64,000 nt of DNA from Chryseotalea sanaruensis. Lineage in GTDB: Bacteria; Bacteroidota; Bacteroidia; Cytophagales; Cyclobacteriaceae. The position numbers and the translations under genes were made by a program. Positions 32,998 through 40,224 of the stretch are shown piece by piece. The first letter of the stretch is position 1. Every line of letters starts with the position of its first letter. The stretch spans positions 62,001 through 126,000 of the forward strand of contig NZ_BHXQ01000004.1 of the NCBI RefSeq assembly GCF_003990915.1. Direction: 5' to 3'. The notes below the pieces were generated by a model. The model did no database searches, was not told the origin of the DNA, and saw only the letters and a program-made list of their open reading frames with translations.

Positions 32998-35900
32998 TTA
33001 ATCATACCAAAGTCCGACCTCTCTTTTGTCATATCTTGGTTTGCGCACTTTCTCTTTAATGTTATCGGGTTGTGTTTCATTTTTGCGGAAGTTTTTTGCC
33101 CAGAACAAGCGAATATTGGTAAAGAGGTCCCGTTCGCCTTTCACATTGTTCTTATTTGTCTTCACAAATTGTGAGTCGGGATGATAATCTGGATTCTTGA
33201 AGAAGTTAAACTTCTGCATTTTAATATTACCCTGATAGTTGTTTGCCTTGGCAAAGGCTTTTCCAGGTTCGCGAACCTTCAATGCATCCTTACTAGAGGA
33301 TGGATTCCGGATATACTGATAGGCCTTAACCTTACCATAAATAGCATTGGTAGCAAACACAGACTTACTTGGATCGCGCTTCAACAGTGCGTCTTCATGT
33401 GCATTCTTGTTTCGTGCCCATCCTGGCTGTTTTACTTTAGTGGTGAGGTTATTAATGGCAAATGTTCCTGCACTTTGCTTGCGCTTCATAATTGAGGCGT
33501 CATGTGCATTAGGGTTTTGCTTATACCCCGGGCTCTTTATCCGAATTTGTAAGCCTTCAGTTTGAAACACTTTGCTACCAGGGTCTTTCTTTAGCAGAGC
33601 ATCTTCGTGCGCATTTTTGTTTCGTGCCCATCCGGGTTGCTTCAACCTGGTGGTAAGGCCATTGGTCTGGTAAGTCTGCTCCGATGGCTTGCGTTTAAGG
33701 ATAGAACCCGCGTTAGCATTTGGATTTTGTTTATAACCAGGGCTTTTAACAGCAATTTGTAATCCACCAGTCTTGAAAACATTTCCACCCGGATCTTTCT
33801 TCAGCATCGCATCCTCATGCGCATTTTTATTTCGTGCCCATCCGGGTTGTCTCATTTTTATAGGTACTCCGTTTGCCTGATAGGCATACTTCTGCTCTCT
33901 CTTCATTAAGGCGCTAGCATGTTGGTAAGGGCTTTTAAGGTATTTGCTCTGCTTTTTAAAACCTGTAAATGATTCTCCCTGATCTACCATAACCTTACCT
34001 ACACCAATAGTCCCTTTATAAGTGGCTGCTTGCATGCCCGTCTTTGAAGGTACACGCTGTGCAATGGGTCGGTTGTTGTTATTCCACATTTTGCCACTAA
34101 CACTTCCACCACCTTTTAGTGGTCTTGTGGCTGGGATGTTGCCTGCGTAGTTAATATTTTTAATACCAATACCTGGCTGTCTTGGGTTGATAGGCTGTCC
34201 ATTGTTATTCCACAGCTTGCCACTAATACTTCCACCACCTTTCTGTGGTTTACTTGCTTTTAGATTGCCTGCATAGTTTATGTTTTTAATACCAATGCCC
34301 GGCTGTCGTGGGGTGATAGGTTGCCCATTGTTATTCCATGTTTTACCGCTAATGCTACCACCACCTTTTTGGGGTTTACTGGCTTTTAAGTTGCCAGCAT
34401 AGTTTATATTTTTTATGCCTATACCCGGTTGTCGTGGAGTAATAGGCTGTCCGGAGTTATTCCATGTTTTACCACTGATGCTGCCACCACCCTTTTGGGG
34501 TTTACTTGCTTTTAGGTTACCAGCATAGTTTATGTTTTTTATGCCTATACCTGGCTGTCGTGGAGTAATAGGCTGTCCGGAATTATTCCATGTTTTACCA
34601 CTAATACTACCACCACCTTTTTGTGGCTTGCCGGCTTTTAAATTTCCCGCATAGTTAATACCTCTTATACCAATGCCTGGCTGTCGTGGCGATATTGGTT
34701 GTCCATTATTATTCCACTTTTTACCACTTATACTTCCGCCACCACTGATTACCCTTTTGCCATTAAGTCTGTTTTGATATCGCGCTGTTTTTTCTGCTTT
34801 TTTACCTGGTGTTTTTACAGGGATGGGCATACCTACTTTGCCAACATATTTACTCGAATAGGACCTGAAACCGCCAATACTTTTATTCTTTGGGTGATCA
34901 CCTACTTTTGCTTTAGCCAGTCGAGGTGCATAAATAGGAGCGTTACTTCCTCCTTTTTTAGATTTGAAATTGCGCCCACGAATCTTTCGACCTGCTAAAT
35001 CACCAACCCATGCTTTTGGTTGCTTGCGGGTAGCTGATTTATAAGATCCAGTCGGACCTTTATAGGAACGATCTCCTCTTGGCCTTTTACTTTTTGGATC
35101 TATAGTTGGTTTGATTACTGCCTGTGCAGGGGATCGAAAATTCCGCATACGCAAAGGTCTTCCGGCAAGATCTTTACCTGAGACATCGCCTTCTTTCCTC
35201 TTTACACTAAAAAAACCAACAAAAGGATTTAGTCCTTTATGACGAATAAATGCACGTGAAGATGATTTAGGTGTTGTGCTTATTCTTTTGGATGAAATTG
35301 GCCCTGAGCTACGAGTTTGCACCTTTCTTCCCGAAGCAGTGCGCGTACTTGGCCGTTGTGTGTCGCGTGGTTTGCGAGATGCATTGTTTACATAGCGATT
35401 ACCACGGTTAGAATAAACATTTTGTCGTGATGATTTTGCGGTGACTGACCGTACCTGAACACGCCTTTTTGGTCTGGCACCACTTGTACCCTGAGGATCT
35501 TTTGGTTTGCGTGAAGCGTTGTTTACATAGGGGTTTGATCGCTGAGAATAAACATTGCGCTTACTACTTTGTGCGCTAACACTCCTCACATTTTTTTGTG
35601 GGTAGATGTTGCGTTTGGATGCTGCGGCAGAAACAGACCTTACTTCTACACGTTTAGGAGGTCTGCCTGCTGAATTTTTCCTCTCTCGATCACGAGGTGA
35701 GCTGCTTACAATAGGTCTTATAGGAGTGCCAGCCCTGTCGCGTCCCTGACGCGGGCTACGTGTGGCAGTTCGGGGTTGCGGATAACTGGCATTGGCTTTA
35801 TTTGCCGAGGATTTATTTTTGGTCCTTAGTCTTCTACCAGCAATATCCTTGGTTTTGGCCCTATCGCCTTGTTTGGATTTAACTTTAAATCGTGTTTGCC

Positions 35901-36018
35901 TGGTTTCCTTTTTATTAGGTGCTGCCGGTCTGTCACCTTTGGTATTTTGAGCGTTTACTTGCTCGGATGTCAATAAAAATAATATCCATAGCACCAGCAA
36001 AGCTGGCCAGCGAAGCAT
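32998..36018 (-). CDS. Secreted, strongly basic repeat protein of unknown function
   Basis: I do not recognise this family. From the ATG at 36016-36018 the product has 1006 residues: a signal peptide (LRWPALLVLWILFLLTSEQ then VNAQ) and a mature chain dominated by Lys, Arg, Gly, Asn, Pro and Gln. Residue numbers in this entry count from the in-frame TTG ten codons earlier. Part one (about 40-435) is disordered-looking with recurring VRSVSA-x-SSKRNVYS, NNASRKP and DLAGR-x-(L/I)R-x-RN units. Part two (436-687) has six tandem 42-residue repeats (core GGGSISGK-x-WNN; ending PRQPGIGI-x-x-INYAGN), the last degenerate. Part three (about 700-965) has about seven 35-residue units alternating between (K/R)QPGWARNKNAHED and KSPGYKQNPNA types. 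It ends with a conserved-looking tail (FTNIRLFWAKNF; REVGLWYD). The protein could bind a negatively charged envelope polymer or DNA outside the cell; that is inference only. The GT2 and sigma factor genes follow on the same strand. Confidence 0.85.
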   Translation of the reverse strand: MLRWPALLVLWILFLLTSEQVNAQNTKGDRPAAPNKKETRQTRFKVKSKQGDRAKTKDIAGRRLRTKNKSSANKANASYPQPRTATRSPRQGRDRAGTPIRPIVSSSPRDRERKNSAGRPPKRVEVRSVSAAASKRNIYPQKNVRSVSAQSSKRNVYSQRSNPYVNNASRKPKDPQGTSGARPKRRVQVRSVTAKSSRQNVYSNRGNRYVNNASRKPRDTQRPSTRTASGRKVQTRSSGPISSKRISTTPKSSSRAFIRHKGLNPFVGFFSVKRKEGDVSGKDLAGRPLRMRNFRSPAQAVIKPTIDPKSKRPRGDRSYKGPTGSYKSATRKQPKAWVGDLAGRKIRGRNFKSKKGGSNAPIYAPRLAKAKVGDHPKNKSIGGFRSYSSKYVGKVGMPIPVKTPGKKAEKTARYQNRLNGKRVISGGGSISGKKWNNNGQPISPRQPGIGIRGINYAGNLKAGKPQKGGGSISGKTWNNSGQPITPRQPGIGIKNINYAGNLKASKPQKGGGSISGKTWNNSGQPITPRQPGIGIKNINYAGNLKASKPQKGGGSISGKTWNNNGQPITPRQPGIGIKNINYAGNLKASKPQKGGGSISGKLWNNNGQPINPRQPGIGIKNINYAGNIPATRPLKGGGSVSGKMWNNNNRPIAQRVPSKTGMQAATYKGTIGVGKVMVDQGESFTGFKKQSKYLKSPYQHASALMKREQKYAYQANGVPIKMRQPGWARNKNAHEDAMLKKDPGGNVFKTGGLQIAVKSPGYKQNPNANAGSILKRKPSEQTYQTNGLTTRLKQPGWARNKNAHEDALLKKDPGSKVFQTEGLQIRIKSPGYKQNPNAHDASIMKRKQSAGTFAINNLTTKVKQPGWARNKNAHEDALLKRDPSKSVFATNAIYGKVKAYQYIRNPSSSKDALKVREPGKAFAKANNYQGNIKMQKFNFFKNPDYHPDSQFVKTNKNNVKGERDLFTNIRLFWAKNFRKNETQPDNIKEKVRKPRYDKREVGLWYD
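33328..33852 (-). repeat. Tandem 105-bp coding repeats (35 residues), alternating types
   Basis: Five well-kept units (protein residues 733-907) alternate in the order A-B-A-B-A: A units start (K/R)QPGWARNKNAHEDA, B units start KSPGYKQNPNA. Degenerate units lie on both sides. The A-B pair makes a 210-bp higher-order period. Positions are calculated from the reading frame. Confidence 0.85.
33988..34743 (-). repeat. Six tandem 126-bp coding repeats (42 residues)
   Basis: Units lie at 34618-34743, 34492-34617, 34366-34491, 34240-34365, 34114-34239 and a degenerate one at 33988-34113. Units 2 and 3 encode identical peptides, yet their DNA differs at several synonymous sites. The repeat is therefore kept by selection on the protein or is not freshly duplicated. 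Confidence 0.9.
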
Positions 36019-36548
36019 ACAAGCGATATGACGGTGTGATCCTTGCAAAAAATTGGCTAAGTAAGGAGCTAAGATAACGAAAAAAATAGCACCACTGTAT
36101 TTAGAGGGCGTAAGTAAAAATTTCTAAGTGCGGAGCCTGTGCACCATAGTAAAAACACCAGTAGTCTGCCGTTAGCTACCTTTTGCAATGATGGTTTGTA
36201 TTTATACGCTCTGATATAATCGGTTTGCTGTTCCAGATGTTCCGAAGGGCATCTGGAACTTTTAATGTACCGGATTTTAATCCGGCATTATTGTAGTTCG
36301 AGATGCGCTGCGCTAAACTGTACAACAGATATAACAACCGTTCTGATCGCTGTATGCAATAACTAGAAGCGGTCTGACCGGTCGCTGTTGCTGAACCAAA
36401 ATCAATTTTTAAAATCGCTGAAAACATCTCGAACAGCTCGTCTGCTATAATCATCACTTACGAGCATGGTCGGCTTTTTATGAAAATTGGTCTTGGTACT
36501 AAATAGAAATCCAGGCGATTTTTAGCTGTATGCGCTACCTTCCAACTG
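36019..36548. other. Repeat-rich spacer of about 530 bp
   Basis: It lies between the divergent basic repeat protein and the GIY-YIG gene. It holds a GTTCCAGATG hairpin (36230-36259), a CCGGATT hairpin (36270-36285) and a split GTTCGAGATG hairpin (36296-36434). A short open frame on the minus strand crosses these repeats and is not credible as a gene. The promoters of both flanking genes must be here, but I see no clear one. Confidence 0.65.
36230..36434. repeat. REP-like element, copy 2, split by 108 bp
   Basis: GTTCCAGATG (36230-36239) pairs with CATCTGGAAC (36250-36259). CCGGATT-TT-AATCCGG lies at 36270-36285. GTTCGAGATGCGCTGCGCTAA (36296-36316) matches copy 1 at 1919-1939 base for base, but its partner arm CATCTCGAAC is displaced to 36425-36434. 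The intervening 108 bp (36317-36424) are absent from copy 1. The first hairpin differs from the split one by one base in each arm, so three related hairpins are present. Confidence 0.75.
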
Positions 36549-36851
36549 ATGGGAGGAGGCAGCATTTATATTGTTAGCAACGAAGACAACACCGTTTTTT
36601 GTGTGGGCTCAACTGCAAATTTGCCGGTAAGAATATGGCAACATCAAAACGGTTATCACCCCCACGTCTATTCAGCAATACATAAGCTTAACAAGTTAGT
36701 TTACTACGAACACCTTCTTACGATTGAAGAAGCATTAGCCCGCAAAGAATTTGTTAGAAGCCAAAAGAGAAAATGGAAAGAAGATTTGATTGCCATTAAA
36801 AATCCTGAGTGGTTGGATTTGTATACAGCACTGTTGGCGGAAGAGCATTAG
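36549..36851 (+). CDS. GIY-YIG nuclease-like small protein
   Basis: A 100-residue single-domain protein of the GIY-YIG superfamily (UPF0213/UvrC-N like). The two signature strands are SIYIVSNEDNTVFCVGST (I6-Y7 and V19-G20 in place of GIY and YIG), followed by the arginine helix ANLPVRIWQH (R28) and a C-terminal ARKEFVRSQKRKWKEDLI holding the candidate metal-binding Glu. Such stand-alone proteins are common and mostly of unknown role. This copy is divergent, sits beside the split REP-like element, and may belong to a small accessory patch. Confidence 0.8.
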   Translation: MGGGSIYIVSNEDNTVFCVGSTANLPVRIWQHQNGYHPHVYSAIHKLNKLVYYEHLLTIEEALARKEFVRSQKRKWKEDLIAIKNPEWLDLYTALLAEEH

Positions 36852-37039
36852 TTTTTGTGTAGCGCATAGCCTTTAGGTTAGACTAGTATAAGGTTGACAA
36901 GTTAGACTGATTATTAAATACCTTGATTTGTAAAGTATATAGCGATTGATTTGTGTTATGATCATTCACAATGTAAAGACTGATAGAATAAAAATATTAT
37001 TAGTAATTCTACGTTAGTCCAGTATCACTAAGCCAAATC

Positions 37040-37759
37040 ATGATGAAGCAATTTATGCTAGCAGTTATAATAGTAATCTGTTATTTGAATTCTGCTCTCG
37101 GACAAAACAAGACATATTTCGGAATCGAATTTTCGTCAGCTAATGACATTTACAAGATTACCGACAATGGTGATTACCTAATGAACGTGCCGCTAGGTAA
37201 CGCGGCAGGAGGTTTTCATATACGACAAGAACTAAACAAAAACCTTTTTATTGAAACAGGGTTGATACTAAAATATTACTGGCAAGGCTTTGGGTTCAAA
37301 ACAATACCTTATTACGGAAGTTCGAGCAGTGACCCTTCATGGATAATTCCGGTTCGTTTCGGTCTTAACTTGAATCTCTACAAGGAAAAAATTTCTCTGG
37401 TTCCTGTTGTTGGGTATTCATTTGGTATTAATCCTCCATTTGGTTACGGTTCAGGCTACGGCAATCAAACATCAGGTACTACAACAATAGAGTACAACTA
37501 CTCAGAGAACCCTGATGTATCTCGTTATTTTTCTCTCATACAAACAGGTATTGGTTTAGAATTTAAACTATTCGAAACCTTACTGCTTTCAATATCTACA
37601 AACTATTACAGCGGGCTGAACAAGACCACGCAAATAGACATTAATTACACGGCTAATAACGCAAACCCAGCGACAGGAACTGCAATTAGCAAAGGTGAGT
37701 TTTGGTGTGTGAGCACAGGACTAAAATATCCAATTAGTAATTTTTGGACAGCGAGGTAA
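37040..37759 (+). CDS. Outer-membrane beta-barrel protein
   Basis: A 239-residue exported protein with signal peptide (MMKQFMLAVIIVICYLNSALG) and alternating strands typical of 8-stranded porin-family or PorT-like barrels (NLFIETGLILKYYWQGFGF, SWIIPVRFGLNLNLY, SLIQTGIGLEFKLFETLLLS). A Gly/Tyr-rich loop lies near 135-145. The C-terminus (STGLKYPISNFWTAR) is not a typical phenylalanine end. No relative is recognised closely. It sits alone between the GIY-YIG and GxxExxY genes. Confidence 0.75.
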   Translation: MMKQFMLAVIIVICYLNSALGQNKTYFGIEFSSANDIYKITDNGDYLMNVPLGNAAGGFHIRQELNKNLFIETGLILKYYWQGFGFKTIPYYGSSSSDPSWIIPVRFGLNLNLYKEKISLVPVVGYSFGINPPFGYGSGYGNQTSGTTTIEYNYSENPDVSRYFSLIQTGIGLEFKLFETLLLSISTNYYSGLNKTTQIDINYTANNANPATGTAISKGEFWCVSTGLKYPISNFWTAR

Positions 37760-37799
37760 GGACTCGCTGGACAGTGATTTTTAAGATTAGAGGATTACT

Positions 37800-38216
37800 A
37801 TGATTGATGAAAAGTATAAGTATTCTGAGTTAACCGGAAGGATTATCAAGTGTGCTATGACGGTGCATAGTGCTTTGGGTAATGGCTTTCAGGAGGTTAT
37901 TTACCAGCGGGCATTGGAGATTGAGATGGGTCTGGCCGGTCTTGATTTCAGCAGAGAGTTTGAAATGCCCATATTTTACAGAGATGAGCAGATTGGCACC
38001 AGAAGAGTTGATTTTTTAGTGGCAGGTCTGATTTCAGTTGAACTAAAAGCAATCACAAAAGTTGAAGATGTTCACTTTGCGCAGGCCATCAATTATCTTG
38101 AAGCATATAACCTTGAGATTGGTCTGTTAATCAATTTTGGTGAACGGAGCTTGAACTTTAAGCGGTTTTCTAACAAGTACAAATCACAGCAATCTCACCA
38201 ATCAAATATATCATAG
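37800..38216 (+). CDS. GxxExxY protein (PD-(D/E)XK nuclease-like)
   Basis: A 138-residue protein of the GxxExxY family. The name-giving motif is G29-F-Q-E32-V-I-Y35 within HSALGNGFQEVIYQRAL. The PD-(D/E)XK-type acidic residues are D71 (RRVDFLV) and E81-L-K83 (SVELKAI), so a nuclease active site is intact. These proteins are scattered in bacteria with patchy distribution and unknown function. The stop codon is 29 bp from the end of the convergent E1 gene, with an 8-bp inverted repeat (AGAAAGTA / TACTTTCT, 38220-38246) between them. Confidence 0.9.
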   Translation: MIDEKYKYSELTGRIIKCAMTVHSALGNGFQEVIYQRALEIEMGLAGLDFSREFEMPIFYRDEQIGTRRVDFLVAGLISVELKAITKVEDVHFAQAINYLEAYNLEIGLLINFGERSLNFKRFSNKYKSQQSHQSNIS

Positions 38217-38244: not shown

Positions 38245-40224
38245 CTAGAACTTTAAGAGTTTCTCTATTGCCTCTTTAATTCTCCCCTTCGCTAAAAAAT
38301 TATTTTCTAAGGTTGGCGCAAAAGGAATGGGTGTATCAAGACTGGCAACACGCAAAACAGGAGCATCCAAATCCTCAAAACAATGTTCACTAATCCATGC
38401 ACTGATTTCGCCACCAATGCCACCAGTTAATGTGTCTTCATGAAGAATAAGCACTCGATTTGTTTTCTTCACCGTTTCAGCAACGGCTACTTTATCCCAG
38501 GGAAGCAATGTTCTTAAATCAAGTATGTCAGCTTTTACTTCAGGCATAGTGTTGATAATTTCTTTTGCCCAATGCACGCCCATACCATACGTAATGATGG
38601 ATAAATCACTGCCTTCATTGACAAGCTTAGCTTTACCAATTTCTATCGTGTAATAATCATCCGGGATCATCTCCTTAATGGATCGATACATAAGCTTATG
38701 CTCGAAGAACATGACAGGATTCGGATCATCAAAGGATGCACACAACAAACCTTTTGCATCATAAGGATTAGAAGGGTAAACGATTTTTAAACCAGGTGTG
38801 TGAAAGAACCAGGCTTCGTTACTCTGCGAATGAAAAGGTCCGGCAGCAGTACCGGCACCTGTTGGCATGCGCACCACTACATCGGCAGCTTGTCCCCAAC
38901 GCCAATGCGCTTTAGCAAGATTATTTACAATTTGGTTGAAGGCTTCAGTAACAAAATCAGCAAACTGCATTTCTACCATGGCCTTCATGCCTTTAATAGA
39001 CAAACCTAGACCTGCACCCGCAATGGCTGCTTCACAAATAGGTGTATTGCGCACACGTGCTTTGCCAAACTTTTCAACAAATCCATCTGTGATTTTAAAA
39101 ACACCTCCGTATTCAGCAATATCTTGTCCCATCAGCACCAGGTTGTCGTGGCGCTCCATACTTTGACGTAAGCCATCGCTAATAGCATCAATAAAACGTT
39201 TTTCGGTTTGATTGTTAGAGGCGGGAGCCACAACTGTTTGCACATAAGGTGCATGAACATCCTGTAATTCAAGTTCGGTACTGGCCTCGGGATGTGTTTC
39301 TTCAAAGGCTACAGCAAGTCCATCTTCAATTTCTTTCTTTAATTCTTTTCTAAGGTTTTCTATGTAGCCAGCATCTACTATGCCTTCTGTTAATAAAAAC
39401 TGTTCATAATTTTCGACCGGATCTTTTTTAGCCCAGGTTTCCATCAGTTCTTTAGGTACATACTTAGTACCACTGGCTTCTTCGTGCCCGCGCATTCGGA
39501 AAGTGATGCACTCTAATAAAACAGGTTTAGGGTCTTTGCGCATTTTTTCGGCAATGCGCACAACCGTGCTATACACTTCAAGAATATTATTACCATCGAC
39601 TTGGACACCTTCAATGCCATAGCCAATAGCCTTGTCGATAAACTGCCTGCATCGAAACTGCTCATTGCTGGGTGTTGAAAGGCCATAACCATTATTTTCT
39701 ACGATAAATATTACCGGCAAATCCCAAACCGCAGCCACATTTATGGCCTCATGAAAATCGCCCTCACTGGTGCCGCCATCACCATTAAACACAGCGGTTA
39801 CTTTTTTCTCGCCCTTCAGTTTGGTAGCCAATGCAATACCATCGGCCACACCATTTTGGGGGCCTAGGTGGGATATCATGCCTACAATATGGTGCTCGTT
39901 CGTGCCGAAATGGAAAGAACGGTCGCGCCCTTTAGTATAGCCCATCATGGTGCCTTGCCACTGTGCGAAAAGCCGATCGAAAGGCATTTCCCTACCTGTA
40001 AACACACCTAGATTGCGGTGCATTGGTAAAATATATTCATCCTTTTCCAGGGCTTGGGTAAGCCCCACAGAAATAGCCTCTTGCCCTATGCCGCTGAACC
40101 ACTTACTGATCCGGTTCTGACGTAGAAGAATAAGCATTTTTTCCTCGATTAATCGGGGAAACAGAATAGCACGATAAAGCTTTTTTAGCGTGTCGGGTGT
40201 TAGTTGCTGACGATCAAATTTCAT
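38245..40224 (-). CDS. 2-oxoacid dehydrogenase E1, alpha and beta domains fused
   Basis: A 659-residue thiamine-diphosphate decarboxylase/dehydrogenase with E1-alpha (about 1-320) and E1-beta (about 340-659) in one chain. The ThDP motif runs from GDG at 148-150 to NN at 177-178. The alpha phosphorylation-loop-like HFGTNEHHIVG and the beta segments GQDIAEYGGVFK and PTGAGTAAGPFHSQSNE are present. The most probable substrates are branched-chain 2-oxoacids (2-oxoisovalerate) or pyruvate; the sequence does not decide. No E2 or E3 gene is nearby. It is monocistronic, divergent from the TerB-like gene. Confidence 0.93.
   Translation of the reverse strand: MKFDRQQLTPDTLKKLYRAILFPRLIEEKMLILLRQNRISKWFSGIGQEAISVGLTQALEKDEYILPMHRNLGVFTGREMPFDRLFAQWQGTMMGYTKGRDRSFHFGTNEHHIVGMISHLGPQNGVADGIALATKLKGEKKVTAVFNGDGGTSEGDFHEAINVAAVWDLPVIFIVENNGYGLSTPSNEQFRCRQFIDKAIGYGIEGVQVDGNNILEVYSTVVRIAEKMRKDPKPVLLECITFRMRGHEEASGTKYVPKELMETWAKKDPVENYEQFLLTEGIVDAGYIENLRKELKKEIEDGLAVAFEETHPEASTELELQDVHAPYVQTVVAPASNNQTEKRFIDAISDGLRQSMERHDNLVLMGQDIAEYGGVFKITDGFVEKFGKARVRNTPICEAAIAGAGLGLSIKGMKAMVEMQFADFVTEAFNQIVNNLAKAHWRWGQAADVVVRMPTGAGTAAGPFHSQSNEAWFFHTPGLKIVYPSNPYDAKGLLCASFDDPNPVMFFEHKLMYRSIKEMIPDDYYTIEIGKAKLVNEGSDLSIITYGMGVHWAKEIINTMPEVKADILDLRTLLPWDKVAVAETVKKTNRVLILHEDTLTGGIGGEISAWISEHCFEDLDAPVLRVASLDTPIPFAPTLENNFLAKGRIKEAIEKLLKF

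Follow-up and report, generated by a model that had tools for sequence, protein, structure and literature searches.

Within the 64,000-nucleotide stretch of Chryseotalea sanaruensis DNA analysed here, hereafter the window, one very long open reading frame raises a double question: whether its basic, repetitive product is a protein maintained by selection, and in which compartment and on what partners such a chain might act. The original prediction had seen in it an extracellular scaffold made of two independent repeat families and ending in a unique C-terminus, possibly in partnership with an adjacent glycosyltransferase (GT2) gene.

The gene and its product

The open reading frame, read on the minus strand from ATG 36018 to 32998, encodes 1006 residues (110.8 kDa, pI 11.3), with 209 Lys and Arg against 46 Asp and Glu, i.e. 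a net charge of +163, so that the description as a giant basic repeat protein was borne out. The features considered below are:

32998..36048, minus strand: gene of the polycationic repeat protein; product of 1016 aa if started at TTG 36048 (likely), of 1006 aa if started at ATG 36018
35950..36048, minus strand: signal-peptide-like N-terminus with hydrophobic core, predicted cleavage between VNA and QN, and TTG in TTTTTTG (ortholog comparison)
34744..35949, minus strand: N-terminal Lys/Arg-rich region, residues 24-425, with VRSVSA units and repeated GD-R/K-A...D-[IL]-[AT]-G-R-x-[LIV]-R-x-[KR]-N motifs
33988..34743, minus strand: six 42-residue units, residues 426-677, GGGSISGKxWNNxGQPIxPRQPGIGIKNINYAGNLKASKPQK
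33223..33957, minus strand: about seven alternating 35-residue units, residues 688-932, with two small predicted beta-hairpins of low confidence
33001..33222, minus strand: conserved C-terminal module, residues 933-1006, ...HPD...NNV..ER...RLFWA..F.KNETQPDN.KEK..KPRYDKRE.GLWYD-COOH, matched by the family-wide profile
33088..33141, minus strand: predicted amphipathic helix, about residues 960-977 (AlphaFold2, best block pLDDT 77, and hydrophobic moment)
38245..40224, minus strand: fused E1 alpha/beta of a branched-chain-type 2-oxoacid dehydrogenase (Pfam E1_dh, Transket_pyr, Transketolase_C), the usual upstream neighbour

Comparison with the closest ortholog gave pN 0.19 and pS 0.84 over 929 codons, and pN 0.09 and pS 0.95 for the C-terminus, constraint being strongest on this end and less on the repeats. 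Since pN is lower than pS, the product is a selected protein; the gene is real and under strong purifying selection, and a chance or low-complexity open reading frame was ruled out by these values together with conservation.

Signal-peptide-like N-termini ending in AQ were found in nearly all orthologs, in agreement with the secretion originally proposed. Most resolved family orthologs lack an ATG in the start region; the best candidate there is a TTG that precedes the AQ cleavage site by 33-35 codons, frequently forms part of TTTTTTG and is often the sole possible start. Of the 87 orthologs in which a signal peptide was recognised, 62 offered only TTG or GTG, 19 had an ATG and six had none of these. 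In other families, compact orthologs such as L259, L262, L269 and L273 start with ATG. The true start of the window gene is probably TTG 36048. The recurrent TTG may be a conserved weak start, or may possibly reflect overlap with a conserved promoter element. A conserved TTATCTTAGC element was observed about 20-25 nt upstream of it in family orthologs (window site 36046-36052).

Searches of Pfam and NCBIfam with the full window chain, and of PDB sequences with the same chain (P0001), returned no match at E <= 1, the C-terminal profile reached a chance-level PDB match only (E 3.6), divergent orthologs yielded nothing convincing in Pfam or NCBIfam, and literature searches found no publication on the family. 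The protein is thus, as first stated, without a named family.

Variable middle and conserved carboxyl end

The series of 42-residue units is present as predicted, with five clear units; the sixth is degenerate, 27-28 of its 42 positions being unlike those of the others. The corresponding 126-bp DNA array was the strongest in the window (Tandem Repeats Finder score 734). Units 2 and 3 had been reported as identical in protein and not in DNA, and they indeed differ by 11 nucleotides, all synonymous, and by no amino acid, the constraint read from this being backed by the overall pN and pS. For the 35-residue series, six regular units (residues 723-932) preceded by one degenerate unit were distinguished. 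The claimed alternation of two types holds for the first five regular units (8-13 differences among units 1, 3 and 5, and 13 between units 2 and 4, versus 20-25 across types); it does not extend to the last unit, which differs from all others by 24-28 residues.

Both repeat families exist, but their independence may be incomplete, because they share a Y-x-G-N-I-K motif, written INYAGNLK in the 42-residue units and NYQGNIK in the last 35-residue unit. We infer from these sequences that both would have grown out of a single ancestral motif with its spacer. Across the family, [YF]-x-G-[NDESTG]-hydrophobic motifs occurred 264 times in 56 sequences, versus 19 expected from shuffles, and the spacing of Y-x-G motifs peaked at 43, 26 and 42. 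In many lineages Y/F-x-G-[ND]-[ILV]-[KR] recurs every 26 or 42-43 residues; some members, namely L270, L277 and L278, showed no Y-x-G motif.

Ortholog lengths range from 179 aa (L244/L245) to about 1,100 aa. Signal peptide, basic body and C-terminal module are constant, and the middle, cysteine-poor and strongly cationic, is rebuilt in each lineage, as PR[YF]S arrays, GGGSISG...NN...Y-x-GN units or 26-residue Y-x-GD units. In L075, L078, L081, L083 and L090, which belong to other lineages of the own family, V-[SA]-P-R-[YF]-S arrays stand between the same two ends, the repeat type being wholly replaced at one locus. As to composition, 39 family orthologs had 15-28% Lys plus Arg, 4-11% Asp plus Glu and pI values of 10.1-11.9, and net charge was +24 to +114 in 16 divergent members, compared with the higher value of the window protein.

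The C-terminus, which had been taken as unique, proved to be the most conserved segment of the protein and a diagnostic module shared by members from many families of the order. The amphipathic helix is followed by KPRYD-x-x-E-x-x-[LI]-W, which lies at the end of the chain or close to it, a short tail following in some members, and the window protein displays the family combination of signal peptide, strongly basic body and [KR]-P-[RK]-[YF]-D-x(2)-E-x(2)-[LI]-W. The D, E and W columns are conserved across distant members. Mean hydrophobic moment of the helix was 0.39 in 74 orthologs, versus 0.28 (s.d. 0.14) in shuffles.

AlphaFold2 modelling of the full chain with a 34-sequence alignment gave a mean pLDDT of 42 and a pTM of 0.23, with 861 of the 1006 residues below 50. 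The model contains only a signal helix, small hairpins (782-791 and 852-861) and a C-terminal helix, and, with these 34 aligned sequences, no regular solenoid in the 42-residue array, where pLDDT is mostly below 50. The C-terminal 120 residues, modelled with 74 sequences, showed one helix (pLDDT 59, pTM 0.22). These models, whose disorder calls rest on shallow alignments of repeats (34 and 74 sequences), suggest a chain mostly disordered apart from one C-terminal helix. High conservation of the tail with no confident fold suggests a segment that becomes ordered upon binding, within the limits set by the same shallow alignments. Such an invariant tail combined with a freely replaced cationic middle offers a natural series for studying conservation in disordered envelope proteins.

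Distribution and gene neighbourhood

Two profiles were used, A1 (last 88 residues) and the broader A4. A1 found one copy in 98 of the 148 genomes of the same family, Cyclobacteriaceae, with a second, weak match containing stop codons in one genome (G120); A4 added six of the remaining 50, giving 104 of 148. The narrow profile had suggested a family limited to Cyclobacteriaceae, and A4 overturned this view: across the order Cytophagales it matched 66 of 291 genomes, 14 from the own family and 52 from eleven other families, some of the weakest matches (E near 1e-3) being possibly due to chance. Carriers include Ohtaekwangia koreensis, Chryseosolibacter, Dawidia, Parachryseolinea and Fulvivirga. 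No profile match was obtained in about 350 genomes outside the order, and class-wide searches matched only Cyclobacteriaceae. The window protein is, on sequence grounds, an expanded form of a single-copy exported polycation present in many Cytophagales families. Part of the own family has no detectable member, and the function is therefore dispensable or replaceable.

A usual gene order was recognised in the own and in other families: E1 – polycation gene – ytxJ – (osmC) – predicted outer-membrane barrel – lipA, neighbours being named from reading of their sequences and E1 from Pfam. In 32 of the 39 family loci E1 precedes the polycation gene in the same orientation, mostly within 200 bp; downstream, ytxJ was found in 22 (by clustering), osmC in 17 (opposite strand), the barrel in 34 and lipA in 23. 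In other families, E1 was upstream in nine and ytxJ downstream in nine of the 14 loci where the polycation gene was identified. A putative E1-polycation fusion in one metagenome-assembled genome (L248:1341-4580) was rejected as an assembly error, because the E1 gene looks frameshifted at its 3' end, from where it continues in frame into the polycation gene, and because the signal peptide is internal.

The window departs from this order on both sides. E1 is on the same strand, 2.2 kb from the polycation gene, behind an inserted segment, the gap being 93 bp in a genus mate (L052). This 1.7-kb plus-strand segment (36549-38216), missing in L052, breaks the adjacency and carries, as judged by eye, a 100-aa GIY-YIG-like, a 239-aa barrel-like and a 138-aa GxxExxY-like open reading frame; the 239-aa one, the only one scanned, had no Pfam match. 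Downstream, ytxJ, osmC and the barrel are located elsewhere in the genus (G000:C8), and GT2, sigma factor and rsmG genes have moved in behind the polycation gene. The link to GT2 and an ECF sigma factor on which the original partnership was built was found in only 3 of 39 loci (L052-L054), all of the window's genus and several kb away in L053 and L054, the other loci showing E1 with ytxJ, barrel and lipA. On synteny this partnership was rejected, the result coming close to the refuting outcome set beforehand, namely that the gene would never be linked with this pair.

The predicted barrel, of about 245 aa (L067:8569-9300; G000:C8:175004-175687), has no Pfam family and usually lies just upstream of lipA. 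PDB sequences gave no match to it at E <= 1. Present in 142 of the 148 family genomes, single-copy in most, it is by sequence an unnamed core gene in its own right. Likewise, ytxJ occurs in 134 of 148 and gives no co-occurrence signal; neither it nor the barrel was taken as an obligate partner, since almost every family genome has both, with the polycation gene or without it. Sixteen family loci around the barrel, from genomes with no profile match, showed neither a basic exported open reading frame of the polycation type nor E1; at a 17th such locus (G010), a divergent member was present. Because the polycation is exported, it is unlikely to be linked to E1 or lipA through metabolism, and the adjacency probably reflects shared transcription or inherited order.

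Proposed role, alternatives and known systems

No type IX secretion (T9SS) sorting domain, type A or B, was detected in the full chain (Pfam and NCBIfam, E <= 1) or among the Pfam matches of 34 orthologs, and the window protein, cysteine-free from ATG 36018 on, offers no lipobox Cys at its predicted cleavage site. The default destination after Sec export would therefore be the periplasm, and the extracellular location first proposed was not upheld. The protein is most likely an envelope component, for which polyanion binding by the repeats is plausible. Our preferred reading, to which we give a probability of about 0.4, is that the protein is exported and polycationic, with a tail that attaches to a conserved partner and repeats that hold on to an anionic polymer of the envelope. 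Once exported by Sec, it would remain in the periplasm or along the periplasmic side of the outer membrane as a largely disordered polymer, and the invariant tail would fold upon binding a conserved envelope partner. The syntenic barrel would be the first candidate for this partner by position only, because it is kept also where the polycation gene is missing. The cationic repeats would act as multivalent stickers and spacers on peptidoglycan, LPS phosphates or an acidic glycan; binding of this kind would leave array length free to vary. Overall, the chain would tether the envelope, or form a mesh in it, by means of charge. In a bolder version, the single-copy, Sec-exported, disordered polycation would dock on the outer membrane with a tail that folds upon binding, and its Y-x-G-[ND]-[IL]-K stickers, variable in number and type, would join this membrane electrostatically to peptidoglycan or LPS. 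Such a Braun-lipoprotein substitute, within an undescribed Cytophagales envelope system, appears distinctly doubtful.

Another possible explanation follows the original prediction in placing the chain at the cell surface, where its repeats, by attaching to acidic polysaccharide or extracellular DNA, would hold cells together as a matrix or adhesive scaffold. Signal peptide, charge, sticker-and-spacer layout and fast repeat turnover, which is common in surface proteins, are in agreement with it; however, neither a T9SS C-terminal domain, a lipoprotein box nor another outer-membrane export signal was found, and the GT2 neighbour is confined to one genus, so that we consider this rather unlikely. 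An outer-membrane assembly factor or chaperone-like protein, holding outer-membrane proteins or LPS in transit with its tail on the assembly machinery, would suit the likely envelope location, the conserved carboxyl-terminal motif and the barrel gene in the neighbourhood. Its middle, however, is not conserved in sequence, unlike that of known folded chaperones, and it is absent from part of the family, which makes this role unlikely.

A functional amyloid or beta-stacked fibre, built of strand-turn-strand units with NNNG or NG turns and anchored by the C-terminus, draws on the Gly/Asn/Ser/Gln-rich 42-residue units with their periodic conserved Gly and Asn and on the short predicted hairpins. 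It is quite improbable given the lack of a predicted solenoid, the low confidence over most of the array, a very high net charge that disfavours stacking without counter-ions, and the quite different repeats of other lineages. Excision and release of the repeats as cationic antimicrobial peptides, suggested by tandem cationic units and an amphipathic cationic helix, is highly improbable, as no maturation protease or peptide exporter was recognised among conserved neighbours and constraint is weaker on the repeats than on the C-terminus.

The polycation family as a whole is order-wide and unnamed, shows an unusual mode of evolution and probably has an envelope-structural role. It is missing from the curated family libraries and literature searched, yet it is single-copy and recurs at a comparable chromosomal site in many families, which makes the gene a clear knock-out target.

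Among known systems, SprB-like T9SS adhesins of Bacteroidota resemble the window protein by phylum, secretion signal and large repetitive chain, and differ by the type IX C-terminal sorting domain, which was not detected here. Curli and Fap amyloids are likewise secreted and composed of tandem units that are a few tens of residues long and rich in Gly, Asn, Gln and Ser, whereas the window protein is strongly cationic, has no predicted beta-solenoid and has no secretion or nucleation genes recognised among its conserved neighbours. The HMM of PHROG 33418, an 82-aa phage family of unknown function, matched the 42-residue units (E = 3.8e-12 for the window chain; 23 of 34 orthologs) through several short repeat matches. 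As tblastn of phage records gave no match and the C-terminal module is not encoded on any viral contig, the resemblance seems to be one of short motifs and a phage origin is unsupported. Polycationic low-complexity secreted proteins of the stickers-and-spacers type share the high Lys/Arg content, the Gly/Asn/Pro/Ser-rich tandem units and the predicted disorder; no sequence relationship to them was found, and the polycation family is set apart from them by its conserved C-terminal module and its fixed chromosomal position.
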